Assembly: GCF_037126245.1 (NCBI RefSeq)
Contig: NZ_CP136925.1
Location: 922,001 to 986,000, forward strand
Direction: 5' to 3'
Length of the DNA stretch: 64,000 nt
Source: Mangrovimonas cancribranchiae
Lineage (GTDB): Bacteria > Bacteroidota > Bacteroidia > Flavobacteriales > Flavobacteriaceae
Part shown: positions 2,040-58,725 of the stretch, one piece after another
How positions within the stretch are numbered: position 1 is the stretch's first letter
Layout of the letters: each line of letters starts with the position of its first letter
Notes under the pieces: generated by a model
The model's input: the letters and a program-made list of their open reading frames with translations, nothing else
Database searches by the model: none
What the model was told of the DNA's origin: nothing
Position numbers and translations under genes: made by a program

Positions 2040-2191
2040 GATAAAGAGTAAATTAGATGCTAAAAATATTAAAGAAAAATTTCAAAAACAGCTTGTATAA
2101 AAAATATTTTTTAATGTGATAATTCTCATGTTTTATTCTTATTTTAAGGATTACATTTGATGATATAAATAACCCTATAATCTTATAAGAT

Positions 2192-44212: not shown

Positions 44213-44256
44213 ATGATATATATCATTTTACCCACTAGAATATTACAATAACTTTG
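44213..44256 (+). promoter_or_regulatory. FNR/FixK-like box and -7 box of the mla operon
   Basis: Perfect 14-bp palindrome ATGATATATATCAT at 44213-44226 (TGAT-N4-ATCA core centred at 44219.5) and TAACTTTG at 44249-44256. The centre lies 36.5 bp before the last base of the -7 box, which places it near -43 relative to the predicted start of transcription, as for class II activators. Confidence 0.75.
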
Positions 44257-44277
44257 ATATTGGATGTTACAAAGTCT

Positions 44278-45060
44278 ATGTCAGGATTAAACACAACAAG
44301 AGCAAAATTAAACGCCTTTTTAATAGAAATAGGTGAGTTGTCTTACTTTACCTCACGGTTTTTTAAGGAAGCCTTTAAACGCCCATTCGAGTTTAAGGAA
44401 TTTTTGTACCAATGTTATAATATAGGAAACCGTTCTCTTTTATTAGTAGGCGTAACGGGATTTATAATAGGATTAGTATTAACACTGCAAACGCGTCCTA
44501 CATTAATGGATTTTGGAGCCGTTTCTTGGATGCCATCTATGGTTGGCATTTCTATAGTAAGAGAAATAGGACCTATTATAACAGCTTTGGTTTGTGCAGG
44601 TAAAATAAGTTCTGGTATTGGTGCCGAATTGGGTTCTATGCGAGTTACCGAACAAATCGATGCCATGGAGGTTTCGGGTACAAACCCATTTAAGTACTTG
44701 GTTGTAACCCGTGTTTTGGCCGTAACATTAATGTTACCATTGTTAGTGATTTTTGGTGATGCTATAGCGTTATTTGGTTCGTTTTTAGTCGAGAATGTCA
44801 AAGGAAATGTCTCTTTTACGCTATATTTTAATCAAGTGTTTAATGCTTTAGAATTTGGCGATATTATTCCTGCCACGATAAAATCGTTCTTTTTTGGATT
44901 AGCCATAGGTCTTGTTGGGTGTTTTAAAGGCTATTTTTCAACTAAAGGGACTGCTGGTGTAGGAAAAGCAGCAAATTCAGCTGTAGTATTCACCTCCTTA
45001 TTGTTATTTATTATCGATTTTATTGCTGTTTTTGTAACCGATATTTTTTATGATTTATGA
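44278..45060 (+). CDS. mlaE: MlaE-family phospholipid ABC transporter permease
   Basis: Inner-membrane permease of the Mla/MCE lipid transport system, which moves phospholipids between inner and outer membranes. The 260-residue protein has several membrane helices (LLLVGVTGFIIGLVLTLQ, VVTRVLAVTLMLPLLVIF, VVFTSLLLFIIDFIAVF) and the MlaE signature around IGPIITALVCAGKISSGIGAELGSM (in part). The ATG at 44278 is chosen; a TTG at 44254 would lie inside the -7 box. It overlaps the ATPase gene by 4 nt (ATGA), so the two are translationally coupled. The upstream FNR-like box suggests stress control of envelope lipid transport. Confidence 0.93.
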   Translation: MSGLNTTRAKLNAFLIEIGELSYFTSRFFKEAFKRPFEFKEFLYQCYNIGNRSLLLVGVTGFIIGLVLTLQTRPTLMDFGAVSWMPSMVGISIVREIGPIITALVCAGKISSGIGAELGSMRVTEQIDAMEVSGTNPFKYLVVTRVLAVTLMLPLLVIFGDAIALFGSFLVENVKGNVSFTLYFNQVFNALEFGDIIPATIKSFFFGLAIGLVGCFKGYFSTKGTAGVGKAANSAVVFTSLLLFIIDFIAVFVTDIFYDL

Positions 45061-45818
45061 AAGATGAAGCAACTATAACATCCCGAGAATTAGTTCTTGA
45101 AATAAAAGACTTACACAAAAGCTTTGGTGATAACCATGTGCTTAATGGATTTAATATGAAGCTTTATCAAGGTGAAAACCTGGTGATTATGGGGAAATCT
45201 GGATCTGGTAAATCAGTTATGATAAAATGTTTAGTAGGCTTAATGGAAGCCGATAAAGGTACCATTACTGTTATGGATAATGACATTACAAAACTAGATC
45301 AAAAATCGCTAGATGTATTACGAGCCGATATAGGGTTTTTATTTCAGGGTAGTGCCCTTTACGACTCTATGACGGTAAGAGAAAATTTAGAATTCCCATT
45401 ACGTCGGCATAAAAGAGCATTTAAAAATCATAATAATACAGAAAAACTGGTTGTTGAAGCCCTAAAAAATGTAGGATTGGAGCACACTATTGATTTAATG
45501 CCATCCGAGTTGTCTGGCGGTATGAAACGTCGTGTAGCACTAGCAAGAACACTTATTCTACAACCTAAAATTATTTTATACGATGAGCCAACAAGTGGAT
45601 TAGACCCAATTACTGCCAAAGAAATTATTATTTTAATGCAAGATATTCAAAAAACGTATGGTACATCGTCGCTTATTATAACCCACGATGTAGATTGTGC
45701 ACGGGTAATTTCAGATAGAATGATTTTATTAATAGATGGCGTAGACTATGCTAAAGGAACTTTTAAAGAATTATCGGCCTCTAACGACCCCAAAATTAAA
45801 GCCTTTTTTAAACAATAA
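45057..45818 (+). CDS. mlaF: MlaF-family ABC transporter ATP-binding protein
   Basis: ATPase that powers the Mla lipid transporter. The 253-residue sequence has Walker A GKSGSGKS (46-53), Q-loop LFQGSALYDSMTV, signature LSGGMKRR, Walker B IILYDEPTSGLDP and the switch His in ITHDVDCA. It lies between permease and MCE protein genes in the usual order mlaE-mlaF-mlaD. No mlaB, mlaC or mlaA gene is nearby; many Bacteroidota lack them at this locus. Confidence 0.95.
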   Translation: MKDEATITSRELVLEIKDLHKSFGDNHVLNGFNMKLYQGENLVIMGKSGSGKSVMIKCLVGLMEADKGTITVMDNDITKLDQKSLDVLRADIGFLFQGSALYDSMTVRENLEFPLRRHKRAFKNHNNTEKLVVEALKNVGLEHTIDLMPSELSGGMKRRVALARTLILQPKIILYDEPTSGLDPITAKEIIILMQDIQKTYGTSSLIITHDVDCARVISDRMILLIDGVDYAKGTFKELSASNDPKIKAFFKQ

Positions 45819-45860
45819 TAACCTAGTTGAAACAAACAAAATATAACAAAAACTAATGCC

Positions 45861-46850
45861 ATGAAAAATACAAGTTCACAAAAATTGCGGTTAGGCGGGT
45901 TTGTTATAATTGGTACTATACTATTTATTGCCGCAGTGTATTTAGTTGGCCAAAAGCAAGATATGTTTAAAAAAACCTTTGCCATAAGTGCCTATTTTCA
46001 GAATGTAAATGGTTTGCAAAATGGGAATAATGTGCGGTATTCTGGCATAGATATAGGTACTGTAAAAAACATTACCATGATAAACGACTCTACTATAAAA
46101 GTAGAAATGACTATAGATGAAAAAATAATAAAACACATAAAAAAAGATGCTATAGCAACCATTGGTTCCGATGGGTTAGTAGGTAACATGATTGTTAATA
46201 TTGTACCAGGAAAAGGTAATGAAACAACCATTAGTAATGGCGATATCATAGAATCTTACAGTAAAATAGGCGCCGATGACATTTTAAATACCTTAAGTGT
46301 TGGTTCGGAAAATGCTGCCATACTTACAGCCGATTTATTAAAAATTACCGATGCCATGACGCAAGGAAAAGGCACACTAGGCGTCTTGTTAAACGATACC
46401 ATTATGGCTCAAGAATTACAGCAATCTATTACGAATTTAAAGACAGCTAGCTATGGTGCTACCAAATCGATAAATGAGCTCCAAGCTATTATTACATCAT
46501 TAAAAACTGATGATAATACGGTTTTAGGAATGCTTATAAACGATTCTATTTCTGGAGAAAAATTAAAATCTATTGTCTATAATTTAGAATCTTCAAGTGT
46601 AGAAATTGATACTATTCTAGGGAATATAAATACTGTGGTTAACGAATTTAATACTAGTGAAGGTGCCTATAATTACATTGTAAAAGATACTAGTTTGGTT
46701 AATAGTTTACAATCTACATTGAAAAACATTAATGAAGGAACCAATAAGTTTAACCAAAACATGGAAGCTCTAAAACACAACTTTTTAACACGAGGATATT
46801 TTAGAAAATTAGAAAGACAGGCTAAACGAGATGCAAAAAAAGACAATTAA
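45861..46850 (+). CDS. mlaD: MlaD-family (MCE) substrate-binding protein
   Basis: Membrane-anchored MCE-domain protein that forms the hexameric lipid-binding ring of the Mla transporter in the periplasm. The 329-residue protein has one N-terminal membrane helix (about 12-30), one MCE domain (about 38-116; FQNVNGLQNGNNVRYSGIDI and NIVPGKG) and a long helical C-terminal part (about 150-320) that may extend the channel. The gene starts 42 nt after mlaF and ends 9 nt from the convergent cbpM. Confidence 0.94.
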   Translation: MKNTSSQKLRLGGFVIIGTILFIAAVYLVGQKQDMFKKTFAISAYFQNVNGLQNGNNVRYSGIDIGTVKNITMINDSTIKVEMTIDEKIIKHIKKDAIATIGSDGLVGNMIVNIVPGKGNETTISNGDIIESYSKIGADDILNTLSVGSENAAILTADLLKITDAMTQGKGTLGVLLNDTIMAQELQQSITNLKTASYGATKSINELQAIITSLKTDDNTVLGMLINDSISGEKLKSIVYNLESSSVEIDTILGNINTVVNEFNTSEGAYNYIVKDTSLVNSLQSTLKNINEGTNKFNQNMEALKHNFLTRGYFRKLERQAKRDAKKDN

Positions 46851-46859
46851 ATGGGATGA

Positions 46860-47153
46860 CTAATCTTCAAAACGATGTAATTTGTTTTTAAGGGTTTGTA
46901 TTTCGTCTTGTAGCGATTCTATTTGTTTTAATAGATGGTGAATAGCATCTATACCTTCAAAGTTTATTTCTAAGTCGTAATGTAGTCGAATCATCTTTTC
47001 TACATGGTATAATTGCGTAGTTTTTAAATAGGTGTTGTTATTTGTACTTATAACTTCAATGAGTTCATAATCATGTAATTCATGTATAAACGTTACCGGA
47101 ACTTGATGAAGTGTACAGAACTTCTTAACAGAAATTAAGTTTGCTTTATCCAT
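46860..47153 (-). CDS. cbpM: Chaperone modulator CbpM-like protein
   Basis: A 97-residue protein in the position and size of CbpM, the anti-chaperone that binds the J-domain of CbpA and modulates it. The N-terminal SVKKFCTLHQVPVTFIHELHDYELIEV resembles a MerR-type winged helix (quoted parts: FCTLHQVPVTFIHELHDY), and the C-terminal part (LKQIESLQDEIQTLKNKL) is a coiled coil. It overlaps cbpA by 8 nt. The assignment rests on this pairing plus the sequence pattern. Confidence 0.85.
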   Translation of the reverse strand: MDKANLISVKKFCTLHQVPVTFIHELHDYELIEVISTNNNTYLKTTQLYHVEKMIRLHYDLEINFEGIDAIHHLLKQIESLQDEIQTLKNKLHRFED

Positions 47154-48042
47154 GGTGTCTTATTTTTTCAAGTTCTTTAAATAAGGCTTTTTCTTTATCG
47201 GTAAGGTTTTTTGGAGTTACAATATTGTAAGTCACATATAAATTACCAAAAACACCTTCTTTTTTATATTTAGGAAATCCTTTTCCTTTAAGTTTTACCG
47301 TTGTTCCATTTTGGGTTTCGGGTTTTACAGTAAGTTTTGCTTTTCCATCAAAAGTGTTAATAGTTATATCGCCTCCTAAAATAGCTTTGTATAAGTCTAG
47401 ATCTACTTTGGTGTGTAAGTTGTCGCCGTCACGTTTAAAATGGGTATTGTTTATAATGGTAAACCGAATGTATAAATCGCCATTTGGGCCGCCGTTTATA
47501 CCTTTGCCGCCGTGTCCTTTAATTTTTATAACTTGTCCATTTTCAATACCAGCTGGAATAGTAATACGAATGTTTTTATTGTTAATTGTTAAGGTGCGTT
47601 TATGTGTGGTAAATACATCTTTTAGCTGAAGTTGCAATTCAGCATTATAATCTTGCCCTCTAAATTTTACTTGTCTGCCTTGTGTGCCAGAAGTTCGTCC
47701 ACCAAACATAGATTCGAAAAAATCTGAAAAATCGCCTTGTGCGTTATCTCCAAAATCTGAATACGTGTTTTGTTGCGTGTATTGTTGTTGCTGTTTAGCG
47801 TTTTCTATGTCGTCGGCATGTTTCCAGTGCTCACCATAAGCGTCGTATTTTTTACGATGTTCGGGGTTGCCTAAAACTTCATTGGCTTCGTTAATTTCTT
47901 TAAAGCGTTTTTCGGCTTCTTTGTCGTTAGGGTTTAAGTCTGGATGATATTTACGAGCTAATTTCCGATAGGCATTTTTAATGTCTTTTTCGGTGGCGGT
48001 TTTAGGGATTCCTAAAATTTTATAATAGTCTATAAAAGCCAT
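47146..48042 (-). CDS. cbpA: CbpA-type J-domain co-chaperone (DnaJ without zinc finger)
   Basis: Hsp40 co-chaperone that stimulates DnaK ATPase. The 298-residue protein has a J-domain (1-70, HPD triad at 33-35), a G/F-poor linker, and two DnaJ C-terminal substrate-binding domains (about 120-290; KIKGHGGKGINGGPNGDLYI). It lacks the CxxCxGxG zinc fingers of true DnaJ, which is the CbpA type. The start codon overlaps the stop of the 70-aa gene upstream (TAATG), and cbpM overlaps its end, giving a three-gene coupled unit. Confidence 0.95.
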   Translation of the reverse strand: MAFIDYYKILGIPKTATEKDIKNAYRKLARKYHPDLNPNDKEAEKRFKEINEANEVLGNPEHRKKYDAYGEHWKHADDIENAKQQQQYTQQNTYSDFGDNAQGDFSDFFESMFGGRTSGTQGRQVKFRGQDYNAELQLQLKDVFTTHKRTLTINNKNIRITIPAGIENGQVIKIKGHGGKGINGGPNGDLYIRFTIINNTHFKRDGDNLHTKVDLDLYKAILGGDITINTFDGKAKLTVKPETQNGTTVKLKGKGFPKYKKEGVFGNLYVTYNIVTPKNLTDKEKALFKELEKIRHHG

Positions 48043-48254
48043 TATTTTTTATGGTGTGTTTTTATATACTGTTTTAATATTTGTTTTAAACTCTCTAGGT
48101 AATCTTCTAGAGCTTTTATGCTAATTCTTGGTTGCGTGTTATAGTTAATAGATACTGGTGTTTCATCTAAAACACTATAAAGTTCTGGATAGTTGATTTC
48201 TATGTTTGTGGTAAGTTTAACTATTTGATTTTGTATATTTTGTAACGTTTTCAT
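48042..48254 (-). CDS. Small protein coupled to cbpA, function unknown
   Basis: A 70-residue soluble protein, MKTLQNIQNQIVKLTTNIE at its start and rich in helix-formers. It has no recognised domain. It is first in the unit 70-aa gene, cbpA, cbpM, with the TAATG overlap suggesting translational coupling. The strict gene order suggests a role linked to the chaperone pair, but this is inference only. Confidence 0.7.
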   Translation of the reverse strand: MKTLQNIQNQIVKLTTNIEINYPELYSVLDETPVSINYNTQPRISIKALEDYLESLKQILKQYIKTHHKK

Positions 48255-48374
48255 GACATTTAATTTTTACAGTTATAAATGTGCTAGGTTTAACTTAAGT
48301 ATGTTGCAAAAAAATGGTTGATTTGTTTTAACTTGCTTGTAGTGTTTTATATATTAAAAATACTGATTTTTTGT

Positions 48375-48989: not shown

Positions 48990-49052
48990 GATTATTTATT
49001 TTATAGATTATTATATAAAAAATAGTTTGCCCGATTTCTCTTAAGGAACAAA

Positions 49053-49448
49053 CTAGTCGCTTTCCAGTCCTTTTATAACAGCTTGTAGTTTATTAGAGAC
49101 ACTTTTAGCAATAGTTTCAAGAGCATTATTTTTAACAGATTGCATAGATTCTATAGGGTTAACAGCGGCAACTTCAATAGTGTTGTTGTCAACTTCTTGA
49201 ATAATAACATTGCAAGGGAGTAGGGTGCCAATTTTATTTTCTGCCTGAAGTGCTTTATATGCAAATGTTGGGTTGCAAGCCCCAAGAATTTTGTATTTGT
49301 TAAAATTGACATCTAATTTTTTCTTTAACGTTTGTTGGATATCAATTTCTGTAAGAACACCAAACCCTTGTTCTTGTAGTAAAGCTGTTGTTTTATCGAT
49401 TACAGTATTAAAATCGCCCTTTACAATTGTGCTAAAATAATAACTCAT
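49053..49448 (-). CDS. DUF302 domain protein
   Basis: A 131-residue protein of the DUF302 family, with the characteristic start YYFSTIVKGDFNTVIDKTTALLQEQGFGVL (in part: DFNTVIDKTTALLQEQGF), then KILGACNPTFAYKALQ and GTLLPCNVIIQE. The family is a small alpha/beta fold, often next to stress or metal genes, with unknown biochemical function. It overlaps the preceding gene by 4 nt and belongs to the transcript starting near 49873. Confidence 0.9.
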   Translation of the reverse strand: MSYYFSTIVKGDFNTVIDKTTALLQEQGFGVLTEIDIQQTLKKKLDVNFNKYKILGACNPTFAYKALQAENKIGTLLPCNVIIQEVDNNTIEVAAVNPIESMQSVKNNALETIAKSVSNKLQAVIKGLESD

Positions 49449-49861
49449 GATGTTGTAATGTTTAAATCTATACTCAGTTTTGCTAGTAGCATTAATTCCG
49501 ATTTGTTTTTACCTGAAAAACTCTCGGCAATGGCCTGTGCTGTTTTAAAGATTAGTTGTTTTACTTTTTTAGTAAAAAGGTGTTCTTGTTCCTGTTTATA
49601 GGCAATAAAATCGTTGTAATATGTTGTACTATTTTGATGTTCATTATTAATAAGCCAATCAAAAACTATGGCAATTTGGTAAGCGGCATCGGTGCCAAAT
49701 TCATCTTCTAAATCATCAACAGAAAGCCATTCTTTTTTTACAAGCTTTTTAAGTTCATTTATTTCCTGTTCGCGAACAGTTTTATCTACTGCAGCAACGG
49801 CATAAAATAGTTTTCCTAAATTTTGGTAAAACCGTAAACTCATTGTTTTTTCTGCTTTCAT
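49445..49861 (-). CDS. Possible TerB-like helical protein
   Basis: A 138-residue soluble, all-helical protein. LGKLFYAVAAVDKTVREQEINEL resembles the opening of TerB/tellurite-resistance-like domains (A-A-D-G-x-v-xxxE in TerB, here AAVDKTVREQE; quoted in parts). This is a weak match, so the function is open. It is the first gene after the FNR-like box at 49909-49922, with a predicted leader of about 12 nt, and overlaps the DUF302 gene. Confidence 0.65.
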   Translation of the reverse strand: MKAEKTMSLRFYQNLGKLFYAVAAVDKTVREQEINELKKLVKKEWLSVDDLEDEFGTDAAYQIAIVFDWLINNEHQNSTTYYNDFIAYKQEQEHLFTKKVKQLIFKTAQAIAESFSGKNKSELMLLAKLSIDLNITTS

Positions 49862-49878
49862 TTTTATCGTATTTAATA

Positions 49879-49922
49879 CTAAGTTACTACTTATAAGATA
49901 TTTAGAGTATGATAAAAATCAT
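49879..49922 (-). promoter_or_regulatory. FNR/FixK-like box and -7 box of the TerB-like/DUF302 operon
   Basis: Palindrome ATGATAAAAATCAT at 49909-49922 with perfect TGAT/ATCA arms (the A4 spacer is not symmetric), centre 49915.5, and on the minus strand TAACTTAG at 49886-49879, one mismatch from TAnnTTTG. Centre-to-box-end distance is 36.5 bp, the same as at the mla promoter. Confidence 0.7.
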
Positions 49923-50015
49923 GTATAAAGTGTTAAGAGGCAGTTTTTTGTTTTTTAGTGGTTGTTTTTCTTAAGGATTTTAAGTAAATTTAAAAACGCA
50001 TTTTATTAACCCAAC

Positions 50016-51233
50016 ATGCTTCAAAAAGATCAAGACATCTTTAAAGTCCTTTTGGAATCTATTTCGGAAGGTGTCATTATCGTAGATGATTGTCAACGTA
50101 TTGTTGAAGTTAACGCTGCCACAGAAAAGATGTTTGGTTACCGTAAAGAAGAGCTGCTAAAACAACCTCTTAGTGTTTTAATTCCTAATCAATATCATAA
50201 AGGCCATAAAGCTCATTTTGATGGTTTTATGAAACAACAAGAACGCCGTCAAATGGGGCAAGGAAGAGACATTTATGGTGCTTGTAAAAATGGCGATATA
50301 TTCCCTATGGAAGCGGGTTTAAACCCTTTTACCATTTATGGAAAAAAATATGTTATGGCTTTGGTTATTGATATTTCAATGCGAAAAAAGCAAGAACAAA
50401 AAATTAAAACTTTAAATGAAAATTTAGAAGATAAGGTCGTGCAAAGAACTCAGGAGTTAAATAAGATGATTCTTGAACTAAAAGCAGAAAACGAAAAACG
50501 TATTAAAGCAGAGGCTAAAGCAAAATCAGCACTTAAAAGAGAGAAAGAGCTTAATGATTTGAAAACAAAGTTTTTATCGTTGGTTTCGCATGAGTTTAAA
50601 ACCCCTTTAAGTGGTATTTTAACGTCTACTATGCTGTTGAGTAAATACCAATTAACCGACCAACAAGAAAAGCGCGATAAGCATATTAAAACCATATCGG
50701 ATAAAGTACATTATCTTAATAATATTTTAAACGACTTTTTAACTTTAGAAAAGCTGGAAAAAGGAAAACTTAAATATAACCCAACAACGTTTAAGTTAAG
50801 TAAAGTAGTAAACGAGGTGGTTTATAATGCCAATATGTTGTTAAAAGACGGTCAAAAAATTAACTATCCAGAAGGCATAGATGCTTTTTCGTTATATCAA
50901 GATGAGAAAATTGTAGAGCTAGCCTTATCCAATTTGGTTAATAACGCTATAAAGTATTCATCAGAGCATACAGAAATAGATATAGCCATTACTCAAGATA
51001 GCCAAAAAACAGTGTTTCAAGTAAAAGATAATGGTATTGGTATTCCCAAAAAAGATCAGAAGAATATATTTAACCGTTATTTCAGAGCTGAAAATGCTTT
51101 ATTAACACAAGGAACGGGTATTGGACTTAACATTGTTAAAGACCATATGAAAAACTTAAAAGGGAAAATATATTTTAATAGTGTAGAACACAAAGGAACT
51201 GTTTTTACCATTGAACTGCCAAATAGTGTATAA
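50016..51233 (+). CDS. Soluble PAS-domain sensor histidine kinase
   Basis: A 405-residue cytoplasmic kinase with no membrane segment. PAS domain at about 5-120, a coiled-coil linker (about 125-188), a HisKA dimerisation domain with phospho-acceptor His192 in LVSHEFKTPLSGI, and an HATPase domain (N box ALSNLVNNAIKYSSE, G1 KDNGIGIP, G2 GTGIGLNIVK). In the PAS domain His64 and Arg84 are 20 residues apart, as are the haem-ligating His200 and the O2-binding Arg220 of Bradyrhizobium FixL. The surrounding MGQGRDIYGACKNGDIFPME is also common in PAS domains not shown to bind haem, so oxygen sensing is a hypothesis. It is followed after 2 nt by its regulator. Confidence 0.93.
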   Translation: MLQKDQDIFKVLLESISEGVIIVDDCQRIVEVNAATEKMFGYRKEELLKQPLSVLIPNQYHKGHKAHFDGFMKQQERRQMGQGRDIYGACKNGDIFPMEAGLNPFTIYGKKYVMALVIDISMRKKQEQKIKTLNENLEDKVVQRTQELNKMILELKAENEKRIKAEAKAKSALKREKELNDLKTKFLSLVSHEFKTPLSGILTSTMLLSKYQLTDQQEKRDKHIKTISDKVHYLNNILNDFLTLEKLEKGKLKYNPTTFKLSKVVNEVVYNANMLLKDGQKINYPEGIDAFSLYQDEKIVELALSNLVNNAIKYSSEHTEIDIAITQDSQKTVFQVKDNGIGIPKKDQKNIFNRYFRAENALLTQGTGIGLNIVKDHMKNLKGKIYFNSVEHKGTVFTIELPNSV

Positions 51234-51235
51234 TT

Positions 51236-52282
51236 ATGAAAACAGTATTGTTAATAGAAGACGATGCAATTTTAAGAGAAAACACGTCGGAATTATTAGA
51301 GCTTTCAAACTATAATGTAATTGCAGCGCCAAATGGGAAAATAGGTGTAGAAAAAGCCATAACACACCTGCCAGATATTATTGTTTGTGATATTCTTATG
51401 CCTAAAATGGATGGTTATGGTGTTTTACAAGAATTAACGCGGCACGACACAACTAAATATATCCCATTTGTTTTTTTATCAGCAAAAACAGAGCGACAAG
51501 ATGTAAGAAAAGGCATGAATATGGGGGCTGATGATTACCTAACAAAGCCTTTTGAAGAAGATGAACTTATAAATACAATTGAAAGTCGAATAGCTAAATC
51601 TGCTATATTAAAAGAGGAGCGAGAAGTTCCGGAAGTTAATACGCCCGAAGATAACATAAGAGATTTAAATGATTTAAAGAACTTTTTAGACGATAACGGA
51701 ACTCTTTTTAAGTATAAAAAAGATACTGTTTTTTATAGAGAAGGCGATCATTCCAATTATATGTATTTAATAACTAAAGGTGTTGTAAAATGCCACAAAA
51801 TAGACGAACAAGGTAAAGAGCTAACTACGGCCTTATATAAAGAAGACGATTTATTTGGTTATACATCTTTTACTCAAAACATACCTTATCAAGAAACAGC
51901 AACAGCGGTTAAAGATCTAGAAATGGTAGGTGTTTCTATAAACGACCTTAAAAATGTTTTAACACAAAACCATGAAGTTACCTTAGCTCTTATACAGTTG
52001 TTAACAGACGACCTAAAAGGTATAAAAGAACAATTGTTGCAAATGGCGTATAGTTCTGTACATAAAAAAACAGCAGCTACTATTTTAAAATTTGCTGAAA
52101 AACTAAATCGTAAACCAGACGATCCGATAAGTATTTCACGAAGCGACTTAGCTAGTGTTGCTGGCATTGCTACCGAAACGTTAATTAGAACCATGTCCAA
52201 GTTTAAAAAAGAAGGCATTATAGAAATAGAAGGTAGGAATATTAAAATTCTAGATATTCAAAAGCTGCAATTCATGTATTAA
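51236..52282 (+). CDS. Receiver-CRP/FNR fusion transcription regulator
   Basis: A 348-residue fusion of a phospho-receiver (1-122; D9, D10, phospho-acceptor D52, S82, K104) with a cyclic-nucleotide-binding-like beta barrel (about 145-255; FYREGDHSNYMYLITKGVV) and a CRP-type winged helix (about 270-345). The recognition helix ATETLIRTMSKFKKEG has Glu314 and Arg318 where CRP and FNR use Glu and Arg to read the G and A of their half-sites. No N-terminal cysteine cluster like that of FNR is present, so it would get its signal through phosphorylation by the adjacent kinase. It is the best candidate to bind the TGAT-N4-ATCA boxes of the island. Confidence 0.93.
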   Translation: MKTVLLIEDDAILRENTSELLELSNYNVIAAPNGKIGVEKAITHLPDIIVCDILMPKMDGYGVLQELTRHDTTKYIPFVFLSAKTERQDVRKGMNMGADDYLTKPFEEDELINTIESRIAKSAILKEEREVPEVNTPEDNIRDLNDLKNFLDDNGTLFKYKKDTVFYREGDHSNYMYLITKGVVKCHKIDEQGKELTTALYKEDDLFGYTSFTQNIPYQETATAVKDLEMVGVSINDLKNVLTQNHEVTLALIQLLTDDLKGIKEQLLQMAYSSVHKKTAATILKFAEKLNRKPDDPISISRSDLASVAGIATETLIRTMSKFKKEGIIEIEGRNIKILDIQKLQFMY

Positions 52283-52307
52283 TTTTTTTAAGATAAACAC
52301 CATAGTT

Positions 52308-52351
52308 ATGACTAATATCATGTTATGATATTCTTGTTAGAATTAGATTTG
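52308..52351 (+). promoter_or_regulatory. FNR/FixK-like box and -7 box of usp1
   Basis: TGACTAATATCA (one mismatch from TGAT-N4-ATCA) at 52309-52320 flanked by A and T as in the other sites, and TAGATTTG at 52344-52351, a perfect -7 box. Centre-to-box-end distance 36.5 bp. A second overlapping inverted repeat (AATATCAT...ATGATATT, 52314-52332) is also present. Confidence 0.68.
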
Positions 52352-52373
52352 CTTGTGTAAAGAGAATTTTTAC

Positions 52374-53219
52374 ATGAAAAACATTCTATTCTTAACAGAT
52401 TTTTCTGAGAACTCATGGAATGCCTTGACGTTTGGGTTAGACTTTTTCGCTGATAGCGAATGCAGTTTTTATTTGCTTCATGTTAGTAATATTAACCCTT
52501 TTAAACAAACCAGTTCAACTTCTAAACCAAATCAAGAAACTGTTGAAAATGTATATATTAAGCCTGCTAAAAAGCAATTAAGAGCAGTTTTAAAACGAAT
52601 CACTAAAGAATATCCTCACAACAATAACCATAGATTTTACACACTTACAGATTATGGTTTTTTTATAGAATCTGTACGAAAGCATGTGTTTGAAAAAAAC
52701 ATAGATCTCATAATTATGGGGACTCAAGGAGTCTCAGGATTAAAAGAATACATACTAGGAAGTAATACAGGTAATATTATAACCAAAGTTAAATGTTCTA
52801 CACTTGTCGTGCCAGAACATGCCACATATTTAAAACCAAAAGAAATAGCATTCCCTACAGACTTTGCCTTATCAAATGATATTAGAATTTTACAACCCAT
52901 TGCAGATATATTAAGTACTAAAAATTCTAATTTAAAAATACTTCATATAGGTTATAAGGAAGACCAGTTAAATGTAGGTCAAAAGGCATGTAAAGAGCTG
53001 TTTGATGATTTTTTTGAAGAGTTTAGTCATAGCTATCATTTTTTAAACTCCAATAAACAAGTCGAAGATGGTATACAATACTTTATTGAATGTAACCATA
53101 TAGATATGATGATTATGGTCGCTAAAAACCTAAATTATTTTCAGCAAATTTTGTTTCATTCTAAAACAGAACGAATAAGCTATCATACAACTATTCCTTT
53201 TTATGTAATACATGAATAA
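52374..53219 (+). CDS. Tandem-domain universal stress protein (first copy)
   Basis: A 281-residue UspA-type protein with two Usp domains (about 1-145 and 150-281). The first opens MKNILFLTDFSENSWNAL and has the ATP-binding signature G-x2-G-x9-G-S in GTQGVSGLKEYILGS; the second lacks the glycine motif and is degenerate. The ATG at 52374 is chosen over an upstream TTG at 52353 that lies next to the -7 box and gives no Usp sequence. Such proteins accumulate in growth arrest, low oxygen or energy stress. The gene has its own FNR-like promoter. Confidence 0.93.
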   Translation: MKNILFLTDFSENSWNALTFGLDFFADSECSFYLLHVSNINPFKQTSSTSKPNQETVENVYIKPAKKQLRAVLKRITKEYPHNNNHRFYTLTDYGFFIESVRKHVFEKNIDLIIMGTQGVSGLKEYILGSNTGNIITKVKCSTLVVPEHATYLKPKEIAFPTDFALSNDIRILQPIADILSTKNSNLKILHIGYKEDQLNVGQKACKELFDDFFEEFSHSYHFLNSNKQVEDGIQYFIECNHIDMMIMVAKNLNYFQQILFHSKTERISYHTTIPFYVIHE

Positions 53220-53242
53220 ACTAATTTAGGTATAAGGTTTAA

Positions 53243-53286
53243 CTGATATATATCATTTTATAAATGATGTAATTAGCGTACTTTAG
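53243..53286 (+). promoter_or_regulatory. FNR/FixK-like box and -7 box in front of a non-coding transcript
   Basis: Perfect palindrome TGATATATATCA at 53244-53255 and TACTTTAG at 53279-53286 (one mismatch from TAnnTTTG), again exactly 36.5 bp from palindrome centre to box end. No gene follows for almost 500 bp. Confidence 0.68.
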
Positions 53287-53376
53287 TACTAGTTAAAAAC
53301 GTTCCTTGAATTACAGAAAAACTTAAACAAATATAGGTCTATAATTTGTGAGATTTATAGATCATATTTAGAGCTT

Positions 53377-53463
53377 ATGCTTATTATTTACTTTGATTTT
53401 TTTAATAACAGTTTTAGTAATAAAAATGAGGTTAAAATAACCGATTTAGATAATAACCATTAA
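53377..53463 (+). CDS. Possible 28-aa small protein
   Basis: ATG to TAA open frame of 28 codons inside the candidate small RNA, with a hydrophobic start (MLIIYFDFFNN) and a charged end (KNEVKITDLDNNH). It has no clear ribosome-binding site and no homologue that I recognise. It may be a chance frame. Confidence 0.25.
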   Translation: MLIIYFDFFNNSFSNKNEVKITDLDNNH

Positions 53464-53474
53464 ACTCTTGTTAG

Positions 53475-53507
53475 GAAACAGGAGGTTTTAGGCTTCCTGT
53501 TTCTTTT
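53475..53507 (+). terminator. Terminator of the first candidate small RNA
   Basis: An 11-pair stem GAAACAGGAGG/CTTCCTGTTTC (one G-T pair), 7-base loop, followed by TTTT. Confidence 0.85.
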
Positions 53508-53637
53508 AAAAAAACAAGCCTTAGTTACCAATTGCAGTGATTAAGGAGGTTGTGAAGATATTTAAATGTTGTTGAATTACGGTTCTTTAACAATTTAAAA
53601 TCTTCTGGAACGGGAAGTTAAAGCTTCCCGTTTTTTG
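53508..53637 (+). ncRNA. Second candidate small RNA or extension of the first
   Basis: The 130 bp between the two terminators ends with a hairpin that resembles the first one (TCTT...GGAA-C-GG, loop, CTTCC-GTT and Ts), as if the unit had been duplicated. It contains AAGGAGG at 53543-53549. No good promoter is visible, so it may arise by readthrough or processing. The 5' end is unknown and the start given is arbitrary. Confidence 0.35.
53609..53637 (+). terminator. Second terminator in the usp1-usp2 gap
   Basis: Perfect nine-pair stem AACGGGAAG/CTTCCCGTT, 6-base loop, followed by four more Ts and G and Ts. Confidence 0.9.
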
Positions 53638-53691
53638 TTTTTAAACATATCACTTTTAAGTGTATACTAAAATATCATTAAGCACTATAAT

Positions 53692-53735
53692 CTGATATAT
53701 GTCATGGTTTTCCTTCTATTTAGGTTGTATTTTTA
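53692..53735 (+). promoter_or_regulatory. FNR/FixK-like box and -7 box of the usp2 operon
   Basis: TGATATATGTCA at 53693-53704 (one mismatch) and TATTTTTA at 53728-53735 (last base differs from the TAnnTTTG consensus). Centre-to-box-end distance 36.5 bp. The start codon of usp2 lies 33 nt beyond the box. Confidence 0.65.
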
Positions 53736-53768
53736 AACTGTTAATCAAACAATTAAAGGATAATTCTA

Positions 53769-54617
53769 ATGAGAAAAATATTAATTCCAACAGATTTTTC
53801 AGATAACGCCATGAACGCTATAAAATATGCTGTAGAGCTGTTTAAATATGACGTTAGTAAAGTTTTTTTCATGCATGCTTATCAAGATGATATCTATACG
53901 AGTAGTTCTTTAGTTAATAGAAATGTATTAGAGGAAATAACAAGCATGGTAAGTAATGAATCAAAAGCTAAATTAGAAGAGACGCTAAAACAGGTTCGTC
54001 ACCTATCTCCAAACCCTAAACATTCCTATCATATAATATCTGTAAACGGTTTACTTGTAGATGAAGTAGATGCCATTGTAGATAAAGAAAACATAGATAT
54101 TATTGTTATGGGAACACGAGGCAAAACTAACGATAGAAGTATAACCTTTGGCAGCCATACGTTACAAGTATTAAAGTATGTTCAATGTCCAGTTTTAGCC
54201 ATACCCGAAAATTATACTTACACCCAACCCAAACATATTTTATTTCCCACCAATTATTTAATTCCTTACAAAAGAAGAGAGTTAAAATTATTATGCGAAT
54301 TAGCATCGCCTTATAGATCTATAATAGATATGCTATACATATCTAAAACAACCCACCTTTCCATTAGGCAAGAAGACAATCAAACATTTATAAAAGAAGA
54401 ATTATGTAGAAGCCCTATTAATTTTAAAACCATAGAAAGTAAAAACATTATAAAAACCATATACAGTTATATAGAAGACGAAGGTGTAGATATGTTGGTT
54501 ATGGTTAATACAAGACATTCGTTTTTAGAAAATATGCTGTTTAAATCTACCATAGATGAAATAAGCCTACAAATAAACATTCCGTTTTTAGCATTACAAA
54601 ACATACGACGTTATTGA
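53769..54617 (+). CDS. Tandem-domain universal stress protein (second copy)
   Basis: A 282-residue protein with two Usp domains. The first has MRKILIPTDFSDNAMNAIKY and the ATP-binding signature GTRGKTNDRSITFGS (G-x2-G-x9-G-S); the second is degenerate. It is the first gene of a probable operon running through usp3, a 135-aa protein, the ATP-cone nuclease, the MBL nuclease and a coiled-coil protein (53769-58644), with gaps of 16, 47, 55, 11 and 10 nt. Confidence 0.93.
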   Translation: MRKILIPTDFSDNAMNAIKYAVELFKYDVSKVFFMHAYQDDIYTSSSLVNRNVLEEITSMVSNESKAKLEETLKQVRHLSPNPKHSYHIISVNGLLVDEVDAIVDKENIDIIVMGTRGKTNDRSITFGSHTLQVLKYVQCPVLAIPENYTYTQPKHILFPTNYLIPYKRRELKLLCELASPYRSIIDMLYISKTTHLSIRQEDNQTFIKEELCRSPINFKTIESKNIIKTIYSYIEDEGVDMLVMVNTRHSFLENMLFKSTIDEISLQINIPFLALQNIRRY

Positions 54618-54633
54618 TTAAAAAAACAAAGCC

Positions 54634-55479
54634 ATGAAAACAATACTCTTACCAACAGATTTTTCGGAGAACTCATGGAATGCCATAGTATATACACTAC
54701 AGCTTTTCAAGAACAATACATGCACATTTCATTTATTACACACATACACCCCCGTTATTTTACAATATGATTATCAAAGTGTAGGGGCTTCTCAATATGG
54801 CTTAGCCGATGCGATGAAAAGTACTTCTGAAATGCAACTACAAGCCTTGTTAGAAAGAATAAAAGGTAAGTTTAATAACCCTAAACATACCTTTTTAACA
54901 TCGGCAGCTTTTAATACGTTAACTCTAGAAATCGAATCGCTTTACAACGGTAACGCTATAGATATAATTGCTATGGGAACAAAAGGCACATCTGGTGTTA
55001 AAGGCGTTTTGTTTGGATCTAATACCGTACATGTTTTAAATAATGCAAAATGCCCCGTATTGGCTATACCAAGCGATTTTTCTTATGAAGAACCTCATGA
55101 AATACTGTTTCCATCAGATTACGAAGTCGATTTTAAAGCAAGCCAGATAAAACCTATTGTAGATATTGCAAACATGTATGGTGCAAGAGTAAATATTTTA
55201 CACGTCAATTATGGAGAGGATTTAACCGAGCTACAAGATAAAAACCGTAACACATTAGAAGGCTTTTTTACATCTGTAGCCCATCTTTTTCACGATATAA
55301 AAAACAAAAGTGTGGCTAGCGCTATTTCAGATTTTCAATTAAAAGCTCGTGTAAATTTATTAGTCATGTTAAATAACAAACATTCTTTTTTCGAGAACAT
55401 ATTTTTTAAATCAAAAATTAATCAAATAGGCTTTCATTTAAATATTCCTTTTTTAGTTATTCCATCAAAAGTATCGTGA
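54634..55479 (+). CDS. Tandem-domain universal stress protein (third copy)
   Basis: A 281-residue Usp protein with two domains; the opening MKTILLPTDFSENSWNAIVY is close to usp1 and the ATP-binding signature is GTKGTSGVKGVLFGS. The C-terminal domain keeps the shared ending VNLLVMLNNKHSFFENI...KINQIGFHLNIPFLVI (in parts), also found in usp2, showing that the copies arose by duplication. It follows usp2 by 16 nt. Confidence 0.93.
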   Translation: MKTILLPTDFSENSWNAIVYTLQLFKNNTCTFHLLHTYTPVILQYDYQSVGASQYGLADAMKSTSEMQLQALLERIKGKFNNPKHTFLTSAAFNTLTLEIESLYNGNAIDIIAMGTKGTSGVKGVLFGSNTVHVLNNAKCPVLAIPSDFSYEEPHEILFPSDYEVDFKASQIKPIVDIANMYGARVNILHVNYGEDLTELQDKNRNTLEGFFTSVAHLFHDIKNKSVASAISDFQLKARVNLLVMLNNKHSFFENIFFKSKINQIGFHLNIPFLVIPSKVS

Positions 55480-55526
55480 AATAAGGTCATGAAGGTCTGT
55501 AGTATAATAATTAAAAACACGTCATT

Positions 55527-55934
55527 ATGAAAAATGTAGGCATTTGGTTAGATAAAGAAAAAGCCCTTATTGTAACGGTTAAGGGGGACGATGAAACTTT
55601 AAATTCTGTTCCTTCAAATATCGAGAACTTTCATGTTCATGGTGGTTCAGGGTCACGTTTTAAAGGAGGTCCGCAAGATGTTGTGCAAGATAGTAAGTAT
55701 TTAGAGCGCGAGAAACATCAATTAAAACAGTATTTTAAAACTATAGTTGAAAGTGTAAATACCGCCGATGCTTTGGTTGTTTTTGGTCCAGCTGAAACAA
55801 AAGATAAATTCATTAAAGAAGTCCAACAAAACTACAAACCACTTACTGCCAAAATAAAAGAGGTGAAAAAGACCGATAGCATGACAGACAATCAGTTAAA
55901 AGCTTTGGTAAGAGACTATTTTAAGTCTAATTAA
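55527..55934 (+). CDS. eRF1-domain-3-like / host-attachment-like small protein
   Basis: A 135-residue soluble protein starting MKNVGIWLDKEKALIVTV, with FHVHGGSGSRFKGGPQDV and ADALVVFGPAETKDKF. This pattern (IWLD-x-x-x-A, a basic glycine-rich middle, a GP(A/G)E(T/A)K motif) is found in small bacterial proteins related to the third domain of release factor eRF1/Pelota, sometimes annotated as host attachment proteins. Ribosome rescue or binding is conceivable but unproven. It lies within the usp2 operon. Confidence 0.65.
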   Translation: MKNVGIWLDKEKALIVTVKGDDETLNSVPSNIENFHVHGGSGSRFKGGPQDVVQDSKYLEREKHQLKQYFKTIVESVNTADALVVFGPAETKDKFIKEVQQNYKPLTAKIKEVKKTDSMTDNQLKALVRDYFKSN

Positions 55935-55989
55935 TATAAATAAGGTGTCGTTGACCCCCTATTTGTTTTAACCTCTTTTTTAATGTAAT

Positions 55990-56832
55990 ATGGGATTAGA
56001 AAATTTTGATATTATAAAATCATCAGGTGAAAAAGTTAGATTTTCATTAGATAAGTTACGGGCTTCACTAAAACCTACAGGAGCCGATGCGCATACTATA
56101 AACCAAATTTTAGACAAAGTAGGCGAGGAGTTATACCAAGGTATTTCAACAAAAGAAATTTATAATAGAGCATTTGCGCTCTTAAAAAAAGAGAAAAGTC
56201 ATTTTGCATCTAAGTACAAATTAAAAAAAGCCATTTACGAGTTAGGACCAACAGGGTTTCCTTTTGAACGGTTTGTTAGTGCTATTTTACAATATTCTGG
56301 CTATAAAACTCAAGTTGGTAAAATAATACAAGGCCAATGTGTTAAACACGAAATAGATATTGTTGCTTACAAAAACAATAAAACAACTATTATAGAATGT
56401 AAATTCCATAGTGATCGTGGTTTAAACTGTAATGTTAAAATTCCTCTATATATAAACTCTCGTTATCAAGATGTAAAATCAAATTGGTATAAACATGCCA
56501 AAAAAACAACGCAGCTAACAAAAGGTTGGGTGGTAACCAACACACGATTTACAGAAGATGCGTTACAGTATGGCAAGTGTTGTGGGTTGCAATTAATGAG
56601 TTGGAATTATCCCAAAAACGATAGTTTAAAAGATAGGATAGATCGGTTAGGACTTTATCCAATAACCGTATCAACATTACTTACCAATAGAGAAAAGCAG
56701 TTTTTATTAAGTCGCGATGTGGTGCTTTGTAGAGAATTAATAAATGACAGGTTTTATTTAGATCATTTAGGTGTTTCTGAGGGAAGGAAAGACAAAATTT
56801 TAAATGAAATAATGCAACTATGCGCTGTTTAA
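55990..56832 (+). CDS. ATP-cone domain fused to an Mrr-type restriction-endonuclease-like domain
   Basis: A 280-residue fusion. Residues 5-88 are an ATP-cone (IIKSSGEKVRFSLDKLRASL, YQGISTKEIY), the nucleotide-sensing module of ribonucleotide reductases. Residues about 92-200 are a PD-(D/E)xK nuclease fold of the Mrr type, with D123, E136 and K138 in EIDIVAYKNN and IIECKFH. The C-terminal part (about 225-280) looks like a helix-hairpin-helix tail. No methyltransferase or specificity subunit is near, so it is not an ordinary restriction system; nucleotide-gated DNA cleavage or repair under energy stress is a better guess. It is a member of the usp2 operon. Confidence 0.85.
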   Translation: MGLENFDIIKSSGEKVRFSLDKLRASLKPTGADAHTINQILDKVGEELYQGISTKEIYNRAFALLKKEKSHFASKYKLKKAIYELGPTGFPFERFVSAILQYSGYKTQVGKIIQGQCVKHEIDIVAYKNNKTTIIECKFHSDRGLNCNVKIPLYINSRYQDVKSNWYKHAKKTTQLTKGWVVTNTRFTEDALQYGKCCGLQLMSWNYPKNDSLKDRIDRLGLYPITVSTLLTNREKQFLLSRDVVLCRELINDRFYLDHLGVSEGRKDKILNEIMQLCAV

Positions 56833-56843
56833 AATAATTAGTT

Positions 56844-58217
56844 ATGGAAAACTTTGTTAGAATTAACTTTTTAGGCGCCTCTGGTGTTGTTACAGGATCG
56901 AAGTTTCTTTTAGAAACATCGGAGCAAAACATCATGATAGATTGTGGGATGTTTCAAGGTCTAAAAGCCCTTAGAGAACTTAATTGGGAAAACTTGCCTA
57001 TTCATGTCGCATCTATAGATGTTGTTTTGCTTACACATGGTCATTTAGATCATGTAGGTTATTTACCACGACTAGTTAAACAAGGGTTTCAAGGAAAAAT
57101 TATAGGAACAGCACCAACCTTAGCTATAGCCGAAATTATACTAAAAGATAGTGCGAAAATTCAAGAAGAAGAAGCCAAAAAAGCGAATAAAGAACATTAC
57201 TCAAAACACCAGCCAGCATTACCCTTTTATACAGTAGAAGAAGCCGAGAAAACCATTGCCTTATTTCAAGTAGAAATAGAAAATAAATGGATGAGTCTTT
57301 CAGAACATATTTTATACCGATTTCAGTATAACGGACACATTATTGGCGCCACATTTATTGAATTGGATATTAATGGAAAGCGTTTTGTATTCTCAGGCGA
57401 TATAGGTAGACGTGATGATTATTTATTAAACGATCCTAAAAAACCCCAATGGGCAGATTTTTTATTTATAGAGAGTACTTATGGTAATAAATTACACCCC
57501 AAAGAAGATGTAGAAGATATGCTATCAACTATAATTACCGACACGCTTTACAAAAAAGGAACACTCGTTATTCCAAGTTTTGCTGTAGAACGCTTGCAAA
57601 CACTTATGTATATTTTATGGCAGTTATATAAAAAAAACAAGATTCCAAACATTCCCATTTTTGTAGACAGCCCTATGGGAAATAATGTGTTAGACGTATT
57701 TAAACGCTTTCCAAAATGGCATAAATTATCACCAGAAGCCTATAATAGTATGTGTGATCACATTAATATTGTACAAAGCTATAAAGAAACCTGGGAAACC
57801 ATCGACGACCCCAGAGCAAAAATAGTCATTGCCGGAAGTGGTATGGTTACAGGAGGACGTGTTCTTACCTATTTACAGCAATTAATAGACGTCCCTACAA
57901 CAACCGTCTTGCTTGTAGGATACCAAGCAGAAGGCACTCGCGGCAGGCAACTTTTAGAAGGTGCTCATGAAATACGTTTTTTTGGAAAATACTATCCTGT
58001 AAAAGCCACGATAAAAAGTATAGAAAGCTTATCAGCACATGCCGATCAAGACGACTTGCTTAATTGGATGAGCCACATTAAAAATATACCAGAAAACGTT
58101 TACCTTATACACGGCGAACCAACAGCGCTAGATGCTTTTAGAGTAAAAATAGAAACTGTTTATCGTTGGCATGTTACTATTCCTAAACTAACCGATGTTG
58201 ACAAAGTTATCATTTAA
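56844..58217 (+). CDS. Metallo-beta-lactamase/beta-CASP ribonuclease-like protein
   Basis: A 457-residue RNA-processing-type nuclease of the YSH1/CPSF-like group. Zinc motif HGHLDH (H65, H67, D69, H70), further metal ligands in FSGDIGR, the beta-CASP motifs FIESTYGN, PSFAVERLQ and AGSGMVTGGR, and the RMMBL-like end SLSAHADQDDLL with LIHGEP. There is no KH domain as in the archaeal enzymes. It starts 11 nt after the ATP-cone nuclease. In stress operons such enzymes probably act on RNA, but the substrate is not known. Confidence 0.93.
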   Translation: MENFVRINFLGASGVVTGSKFLLETSEQNIMIDCGMFQGLKALRELNWENLPIHVASIDVVLLTHGHLDHVGYLPRLVKQGFQGKIIGTAPTLAIAEIILKDSAKIQEEEAKKANKEHYSKHQPALPFYTVEEAEKTIALFQVEIENKWMSLSEHILYRFQYNGHIIGATFIELDINGKRFVFSGDIGRRDDYLLNDPKKPQWADFLFIESTYGNKLHPKEDVEDMLSTIITDTLYKKGTLVIPSFAVERLQTLMYILWQLYKKNKIPNIPIFVDSPMGNNVLDVFKRFPKWHKLSPEAYNSMCDHINIVQSYKETWETIDDPRAKIVIAGSGMVTGGRVLTYLQQLIDVPTTTVLLVGYQAEGTRGRQLLEGAHEIRFFGKYYPVKATIKSIESLSAHADQDDLLNWMSHIKNIPENVYLIHGEPTALDAFRVKIETVYRWHVTIPKLTDVDKVII

Positions 58218-58227
58218 TACCATAGCC

Positions 58228-58644
58228 ATGAAAACTAATATCACTTACAGAAGTTATAATACCGATAAAACCTTAGAAGAATTACAATACAATATAAACA
58301 CTTGTAAAATACGACTAGAGAATACCAAAGCAGAAATTGTGTTTTATGAGTTTATTTTAAGTGCTCCCATGTATAAAAACTCAGTTATCAATTTATTTGA
58401 AACACTTCAACAGTTTAAAACAAAACTACAAGAACTAGAACGACAAGGCTTACAACTTATAGAAGATATAAATGCACATGTAAATCAAATAGCGAAAAAA
58501 AACGAATGTGAAGATGTGATGTGTGATAATTACTTTCTACAACATCATGATAATTTAGAACGAAAAGCACATAATTTTTTTACCGAATTAAGCACTCTTA
58601 AAAGCGCTATGTTTGATTATTTGAAAAGTGTCATAAAAGTCTGA
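58228..58644 (+). CDS. Coiled-coil protein, paralogue of the gene after hsp20
   Basis: A 138-residue helical protein. The ATG at 58228 is chosen over an upstream one at 58195 that overlaps the nuclease gene. It consists of helices with heptad-like hydrophobic spacing (ELQYNINTCKIRLENTKAEI, LQQFKTKLQELERQGLQLIE) and ends LKSAMFDYLKSVIKV. The 147-aa protein at 59280 has the same layout and a similar end (LKSHLFNVVKRVIKEQ), so the two are probably paralogues placed on either side of hsp20. Function unknown; it may be a structural or chaperone-associated partner. Confidence 0.75.
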   Translation: MKTNITYRSYNTDKTLEELQYNINTCKIRLENTKAEIVFYEFILSAPMYKNSVINLFETLQQFKTKLQELERQGLQLIEDINAHVNQIAKKNECEDVMCDNYFLQHHDNLERKAHNFFTELSTLKSAMFDYLKSVIKV

Positions 58645-58681
58645 TTAATTTGTGTTAAATGTTTGTTTTTCAGTGATGTAA

Positions 58682-58725
58682 ATGATAAAAGTCATTTTAA
58701 AAAACATACATATTACTTAATTTAA
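58682..58725 (+). promoter_or_regulatory. FNR/FixK-like box in front of hsp20
   Basis: TGATAAAAGTCA at 58683-58694 (one mismatch), flanked by A and T. At the standard 36.5-bp distance lies TAATTTAA (58718-58725), a weak -7 match; TAATGTTG at 58723-58730 is an alternative. Weakest of the six. Confidence 0.5.

Follow-up and report, generated by a model that had tools for sequence, protein, structure and literature searches.

A predicted low-oxygen regulon of Flavobacteriaceae with FNR/FixK-type sites at one fixed promoter distance and two candidate oxygen sensors

The closest described relatives of the system considered here are the FixL-FixJ-FixK cascade of rhizobia and Caulobacter and the FNR and ANR proteins of Escherichia coli and Pseudomonas, which act from the class II activator position, near -41.5, and have hemN and cbb3-type oxidase genes among their targets. 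E. coli also possesses FnrS, an FNR-dependent small RNA. Among flavobacteria, an abundant group in the sea, several carry a cbb3 oxidase and nosZ. Here we analyse a stretch of 64,000 nucleotides from the flavobacterium Mangrovimonas cancribranchiae (contig NZ_CP136925.1, positions 922,001 to 986,000; referred to as the window), in which FNR/FixK-type palindromes stand at an exact distance from promoter-like boxes, around the genes for a FixL-like kinase and a regulator with receiver and CRP/FNR parts. A hFixL-FxkR-FixK cascade has been described elsewhere (PMC7888657), and the account of the NmpRSTU oxygen regulon of Myxococcus xanthus covers a cbb3 oxidase and HemN and discusses universal stress proteins (PMC11841059). 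In Flavobacterium psychrophilum the cbb3 oxidase and haem synthesis are upregulated under oxygen limitation, and none of the terms Fnr, Crp and FixL occurs in the main text of that report (PMC9723704). No description of a flavobacterial low-oxygen regulon was found in the literature among the matches listed.

We consider it likely that the sites described below belong to a low-oxygen FNR/FixK-type class II regulon which is widespread in Flavobacteriaceae and in which two inputs converge on one box. As in the FixL-FixJ-FixK cascade, the predicted system comprises a haem-PAS kinase, a receiver, a CRP/FNR-type activator, cbb3 targets (fixNOQP/GHIS) and a TGAT-N4-ATCA core. Unlike in that cascade, the receiver and CRP/FNR parts reside in a single protein, one step thus replacing the transfer from FixJ to FixK; moreover, the phylum is a different one, the outer base of the box differs, and stress genes and a non-coding RNA are among the predicted targets. 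With E. coli FNR and Pseudomonas ANR the system shares the core of the box and, in a homologue encoded beside the cco genes, N-terminal cysteines. Its content is convergent with that of the NmpRSTU regulon, whose regulator is NtrC-like, whose promoters are of the sigma54 type and whose box is different.

Sites were defined by the pattern TGAYN4RTCA-N23-TANNTT, and DNA outside ATG frames of at least 60 amino acids was taken as intergenic (∼9% of the window). The initial annotation had reported six palindromes, each with a -7-like box whose final base stands 36.5 bp away from the palindrome centre. The palindromes were recovered at the positions given, three of them as perfect TGATN4ATCA (44214, 49910 and 53244) and three with one mismatch (52309, 53693 and 58683), and the distance, which equals a gap of 23 bp between palindrome and box, holds at 6/6 sites. 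Five of the sites face right and the one at 49910 faces left. TGAYN4RTCA words occur 11 times in the window, six times in intergenic DNA and five times within genes; TANNTT stands at 23 bp from all six intergenic palindromes and from 0/5 intragenic ones, the palindrome at 17517, for example, having TCGTTTTG, without TA, at the box position. Between positions 44001 and 59000 the full pattern was observed six times, as against a mean of 0.019 and a maximum of 1 in 1000 dinucleotide shuffles. Two details of the initial picture had to be amended. No such cores had been noticed in other intergenic DNA of the window, and a seventh site, at 2117 and with a mismatch in one arm, had been overlooked there. 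As for the site at 49910, its palindrome and spacing stand, and the box is present on the minus strand only, which assigns the site to hyp138-DUF302 and not to the kinase operon; a kinase-operon promoter at this position was rejected, the plus strand having no -7-like box at the 23-bp spacing.

The same spacing dominates in related genomes. In 20 relatives' loci (19.5-kb neighbourhoods of the regulator gene) we counted 86 pairs at 23 bp and between 0 and 7 at each other spacing from 5 to 59. A second set, consisting of 80 loci from Tenacibaculum, Kordia, Winogradskyella, Aquimarina and others, yielded 240 pairs with a gap of 23 bp, another 25 with 24 bp and a mean of 4.3 at other spacings; the two locus sets overlap, at least three of the 80 loci coming from genomes (G088, G096 and G101) of the 149-genome set introduced below. 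The pairs are not random, as the spacing is kept before orthologous genes in many genera. The universal stress protein (usp) gene adjoining the regulator is preceded by a site in 18/20 relatives' loci (exceptions: L063 and L072), and in the second set a site lies no more than 400 bp downstream of the regulator gene in 75/80 loci (present in L205, absent from L219). Among the 20 relatives' loci, sites upstream of hyp138 and hsp20 account for nine and six rows, respectively, and the site upstream of mlaE recurs in L054, L058 and L072, as well as in L090, where it falls within a called frame. Orthologues of the ribosome hibernation gene HPF, which follows the seventh site, were found in 31/60 genomes at E≤1e-20, and a comparison of the upstream regions of 30 loci, our own included, revealed the 23-bp pair in 20/30 (16/30 with a perfect TGAYN4RTCA), other spacings occurring in 0–3/30. 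A genome-wide scan, proposed in the initial annotation and run here by pattern on the 3,085,202-bp genome, likewise gave a non-random result, with 19 full matches vs 3 for the reversed-pattern control. With one mismatch allowed, the numbers were 53 and 37, which is too loose to use; of the 15 exact matches in that scan one (L019) is intragenic.

In F. psychrophilum the -7 box of sigmaA promoters, TAnnTTTG, spans positions -12 to -5 (PMC9723704). With 36.5 bp separating the palindrome centre from the end of the box, this placement puts the centre at -41.5, so that the class II position suggested initially agrees with both the box spacing and the published start-site geometry. From this geometry the sites are predicted to be class II activator boxes.

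The expected box sequence, TTGAT-N4-ATCAA, was not borne out. The consensus derived from 168 sites in 40 loci is [AC]TGAT-WWWT-ATCAT (with the permitted alternatives, [AC]TGAY-N4-RTCAT), position +12 being T in 98% of the sites and position -1 being T in 5%. All six palindromes noted initially begin with A or C and end in TCAT. The T at +12 is found in 35/35 distinct site words from loci with the receiver-CRP regulator and without the FNR homologue, and in 12/12 from loci with the reverse combination, as opposed to 26/64 palindromes that lack a -7-like box. The recognition residues, E..IR, are identical in 21/21 aligned receiver-CRP proteins and in three sequences of the FNR homologue. In the recognition helix of E. 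coli FNR, Ser-212 occupies the place where both candidates carry Ile (PMC4505428). The exchange of Ser for Ile is consistent with the changed outer base of the box, to which it may be causally linked.

Two regulators probably read this box. The product of the gene at 51236-52282, singled out initially as the regulator, is indeed of CRP/FNR type, but it proved to be a response regulator paired with a FixL-like kinase, and not the sole candidate. It contains a receiver, a cNMP_binding and an HTH_Crp_2 domain, in contrast to FixJ, which combines a receiver with a LuxR-type HTH. The CRP part matches FNR and FixK2, the match to the NCBIfam FixK model staying under the cut-off, and the fusion to a receiver is atypical for FixK. 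The phosphorylatable Asp is kept in 21/21 aligned proteins. Orthologues were found in 32/198 genomes of the phylum (E≤1e-60), all within one class. The gene for the ATP-cone protein of the same cluster is present (E<1e-100) in 52/149 genomes by hand count, 49/52 of which have the receiver-CRP protein. Four genomes have two receiver-CRP copies, namely G110 (L056/L077), G121 (L066/L078), G061 (L062/L079) and G133 (L065/L080); in these, the copies L056, L066 and L062 lie beside cco-like genes, and L077, L079 and L080 are in a usp/ATP-cone cluster.

The kinase is predicted to be a haem-PAS oxygen sensor. Its PAS domain matches 14 PDB sequences, of which 13 are FixL or DosP/EcDOS and the remaining one, 10jx, is titled haem-binding. 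His64 and Arg84 align with the haem (proximal) His and the distal Arg of FixL, and among 21 aligned kinases the haem His is kept in 20/21 and the distal Arg in 15/21. A rough count with a simple regular expression in the 80-locus set gave 54 kinases with both residues, 11 with the His only and 15 in which the motif was not found. The structural model of the PAS domain (pLDDT 79.8), compared by Foldseek, matches the haem domains of FixL and DosP.

The second candidate is an FNR homologue, one of four PF13545 matches (one under the cut-off) in the M. cancribranchiae genome. It has the domains PF00027 and PF13545, adjoins genes for a P-type ATPase and the cbb3 oxidase, and has the Fnr model as its best NCBIfam match (score 96, below the cut-off of 228). 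Cysteines 4, 7, 29 and 106, present in this protein and in its counterparts from L059 and L066, give the spacing CX2C-X21-C, from which that of E. coli FNR differs. The four are candidate ligands of a [4Fe-4S] cluster, and the homologue is probably an iron-sulfur (Fe-S) protein. The kinase, receiver-CRP, usp and FNR genes stand beside a cco-like row in 5/20 relatives (L056, L057, L059, L062 and L066), the cco genes of the relatives being named by gene size and order only. The FNR gene and a ccoI-like gene diverge from a shared intergenic stretch with a one-mismatch site (G000:C1:1805957-1805997), which possibly points to autoregulation. Another CRP-like protein, of 212 amino acids, which may be a sulfur regulator, is encoded elsewhere (L022, 1048-1683; G000:C1 near 1034.6k), followed by genes for a TSUP-like membrane protein and a metallo-beta-lactamase (MBL)-like protein, both named by eye. 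Flavobacteriales CRP/FNR homologues have been placed near MalR (PMC8510549).

The distribution of the two regulators was compared with site density in 149 genomes (148 genera), the receiver-CRP protein being called at E<1e-75 (66/149) and the FNR homologue at E≤1e-40 (91/149), with weaker homologues counted as absent. Genomes with both (n = 36) have 10.27 sites/Mb vs 0.79 for the reversed control, those with the receiver-CRP protein alone (n = 30) 7.36 vs 0.78, and those with the FNR homologue alone (n = 55) 4.96 vs 1.02. Where neither was called (n = 28) the values are 2.65 and 1.09, or 1.66 and 1.01 for the genomes of at least 2.6 Mb (n = 11). Either regulator thus accompanies site enrichment, as a correlation. 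We also considered that TGAC..GTCA half-sites might belong to FNR and TGAT..ATCA half-sites to the receiver-CRP protein, an idea that counts over the 149 genomes did not support; sites before a ccoS-sized gene start with TGAC in 5/5 cco-linked receiver-CRP loci and with TGAT in 4/5 genomes lacking that protein.

Of the 19 matches in the genome, six are in the window and 13 elsewhere. Eight of the latter precede genes, two (L013 and L017) are doubtful, as they do not have T at +12, and three (L003, L004 and L019) are intragenic and look like chance. The genes behind the eight are a small gene ahead of a CcoN-CcoO fusion, a cytochrome c gene upstream of Sec-type nosZ, hemN, a peroxiredoxin-cydA pair and genes for a CBS protein, a Thioredoxin_9 protein, a short-chain dehydrogenase and a protein weakly similar (under the cut-off) to sulfide:quinone reductase. 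Such content resembles that of ANR, FNR and FixK regulons. The designation 'stress regulon' is appropriate for the usp and hsp20 sites, but the set reaches cbb3 and bd oxidases, nosZ, hemN and HPF as well. Since sites precede the cbb3, nosZ, hemN and peroxiredoxin-cydA genes, low oxygen, rather than generic stress, is the likeliest signal.

The fourth site of the window (Table 1) precedes no protein-coding gene, and a non-coding transcript had been proposed for it. This proposal found support in relatives' loci, where a gene-less site between usp1 and usp2 is followed by RNA units ending in GAAACAGGAAG-loop-CTTCCTGTTTC hairpins; the predicted transcript is a member of a conserved, covarying and often tandem RNA family. 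The tandem units are mostly 175–200 nt apart, up to four in a row. Arrays of three to four units behind one site are found in L068 (7250-7890), L079 (11155-11800) and L080 (7600-8640), with a further U-tailed hairpin after the arrays in L079 and L080. When 27 units taken from 12 genomes were aligned, 13 base pairs emerged, eight of them with compensatory changes, tandem units of the same genome not being independent; an earlier nine-region alignment was poor at its 5' end, and three of its loci (L060, L064 and L069) gave no units for the final one. At E≤0.01 the covariance model matched in 30/149 genomes, a number that includes the 12 genomes used for training. At E<1e-3 there were 11 non-training loci, eight with a same-strand site within 750 bp upstream; of the others, G006 and G051 have no site and G037 has one downstream only. 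In seven genomes the best match had an E value of 1e-3 to 1e-2; a site was present in 0/7 of these loci, and the matches were judged to be chance. In the 80-locus set (3-kb flanks) units were present in four loci, all with an upstream site, one of which (L186) belongs to a training genome. Further matches occur elsewhere in training genomes, e.g. in G061 near 550k, in G133:C1 and in G121 near 3.24 Mb. No Rfam family scored above its gathering threshold in positions 53200-53800 of the window (best 24.1 bits vs a cut-off of 58.7), and the loci L068, L070, L079 and L080 had 0 Rfam matches. A peptide gene was rejected, the longest ATG frames in 12 regions having 11–57 codons and sequences that appeared unlike each other by eye. 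As with FnrS, an FNR-type box stands immediately before the gene of a predicted structured RNA; unlike in FnrS, the hairpin units are repeated up to four times, and the loci searched contain no Rfam match. By analogy, an FnrS-like post-transcriptional role may be guessed at.

Table 1. Sites, genes and RNA of the predicted regulon in the window
Feature	Position	Strand	Remarks
Site 7	2117..2159	+	one arm mismatch; TGATAATTCTCA/TGATAATTCTCAT + TACATTTG; before HPF/S30AE gene
HPF/S30AE-type ribosome hibernation protein, 99 aa	2192..2491	+	PF02482, E 1.5e-16
Site 1	44214..44256	+	ATGATATATATCAT box + TAACTTTG; before mlaEFD; mlaE start 44281, predicted +1 ∼44261
mlaE-mlaF-mlaD-type lipid transporter genes	44281..46850	+	PF02405, PF00005, PF02470
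DUF302 protein	49053..49448	-	PF03625
hyp138	49445..49861	-	without Pfam match
Site 2	49879..49921	-	palindrome 49910-49921, box TAACTTAG 49886-49879; before hyp138-DUF302
FixL-like histidine kinase, 405 aa	50016..51233	+	PAS-HisKA-HATPase; PF00512
Response regulator (REC-FixK), 348 aa	51236..52282	+	receiver + CRP sensor fold + HTH_Crp
Site 3	52309..52351	+	TGACTAATATCAT + TAGATTTG; before usp1
usp1 universal stress protein	52374..53219	+	PF00582
Site 4	53244..53286	+	TGATATATATCAT + TACTTTAG; before non-coding RNA; also seen in relatives' loci
Non-coding RNA	53291..53642	+	start predicted, end by terminator; two hairpin units (hairpins 53473-53505, 53607-53634)
Site 5	53693..53735	+	TGATATATGTCAT + TATTTTTA; before usp2-usp3-hyp135-ATPcone-MBL
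usp2	53769..54617	+	Pfam domain search
usp3	54634..55479	+	Pfam domain search
hyp135	55527..55934	+	weak eRF1_2-like match under Pfam cut-off
ATP-cone/Mrr-type nuclease-like protein	55990..56832	+	ATP-cone match just under cut-off
beta-CASP metallo-beta-lactamase RNase-like protein	56844..58217	+	Pfam domain search
Site 6	58683..58725	+	TGATAAAAGTCAT + TAATTTAA; before hsp20
hsp20 (alpha-crystallin)	58761..59213	+	PF00011

Judged by gene spacing, usp2-usp3-hyp135-ATPcone-MBL would form one operon. On the minus strand, the genes for a CbpM-like protein, DnaJ and a 70-residue protein (46860-48254) showed no site in the window, and dnaJ or hyp70 is preceded by sites in the relatives L068, L069, L070, L079, L080 and L089. 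The frame listing alone also indicates a repetitive, secreted-looking protein of 2665 amino acids with many near-identical repeats at 35444-43441.

Several observations weigh against a regulon with two oxygen inputs. The genomes in which neither regulator was called keep a 2.4-fold excess of sites, with 89/178 matches coming from G048, G147 and G138, of which G048 is 82% and G147 73% complete; the counts per Mb ignore phylogeny, and those for genomes with the receiver-CRP protein alone leave out other CRP/FNR paralogues. The half-site excess ratio, 1.94 in genomes with the receiver-CRP protein and 2.63 in genomes lacking it, does not separate the regulators. Three genomes lacking the receiver-CRP protein (G066, G107 and G008) keep the site before the usp2/hyp135-ATPcone set (3/3). 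Because such genomes keep sites, the receiver-CRP protein is not required for the box, and a role as sole regulator was rejected. Of the single activator envisaged initially one element stands, a CRP/FNR-type regulator encoded at the locus; sites occur in genomes without it, and an FNR homologue has the same contact residues. That this homologue alone acts at all boxes, the receiver-CRP protein controlling something else or being a weak modulator, seems quite unlikely to us: it would account for the sites in genomes lacking the latter, including those before the ccoS-sized gene (5/5), and for their enrichment, but against it stand the enrichment in the 30 genomes that have the receiver-CRP protein and no FNR orthologue, the clustering of sites around the receiver-CRP gene and the identity of the contact residues.

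As to the signal, the haem His is absent from 1/21 and the distal Arg from 6/21 kinases, and the structural matches of the PAS model include LOV domains as well, a blue-light receptor standing first. The regulon might therefore be real and its signal not oxygen, with the PAS domain sensing NO, redox state or light or serving as a structural relay, and with the genes forming a starvation or general stress set, as usp, hsp20, HPF and Mla would suggest. We regard this as unlikely in view of the near-universal haem His, the haem proteins matched by the PAS domain, and the cbb3, bd, nosZ and hemN genes downstream of sites. A chance origin of the pairs is extremely improbable: AT-rich promoters often hold TGAT/ATCA and TAnnTT, and loose palindromes are common (69 with at most one mismatch in the window), but the single-spacing peak, the shuffles, the reversed control and the conservation before orthologues all oppose it, the spacing histograms already contradicting it.

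In the two-input regulon that we favour, a CRP/FNR-type dimer would bind [AC]TGAY-N4-RTCAT centred at -41.5 and recruit sigmaA RNA polymerase to the TAnnTTTG-type -7 box. In one input, the FixL-like haem-PAS kinase would phosphorylate the receiver-CRP regulator encoded with it at 50016-52282; the other would pass through the FNR homologue, probably an Fe-S protein, whose gene adjoins the cbb3 oxidase genes. Low oxygen would then switch on high-affinity respiration (cbb3 and bd), nosZ and hemN, the structured RNA, and a group of genes with protective roles: usp, hsp20, HPF, those for the Mla lipid transporter, DUF302 and the nuclease-like proteins.

More specifically, Bacteroidota may possess a one-step switch from haem kinase to phosphorylated FNR-type regulator, which shares a variant box with an Fe-S FNR; one promoter architecture would then serve as the meeting point of two oxygen sensors that are independent and perhaps differ in threshold; the output would include a new tandem RNA family as the flavobacterial counterpart of FnrS. 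We find the considerations for and against this fuller proposal evenly balanced. What emerges for further work is a testable box with its promoter geometry, a pair of candidate sensors, a conserved RNA gene and a list of genes in which nosZ and ribosome hibernation figure. Specificity could be tested through the altered outer base in combination with the Ser-to-Ile contact residue. The natural two-by-two distribution of the regulators lets one ask how two oxygen sensors would share a single site.

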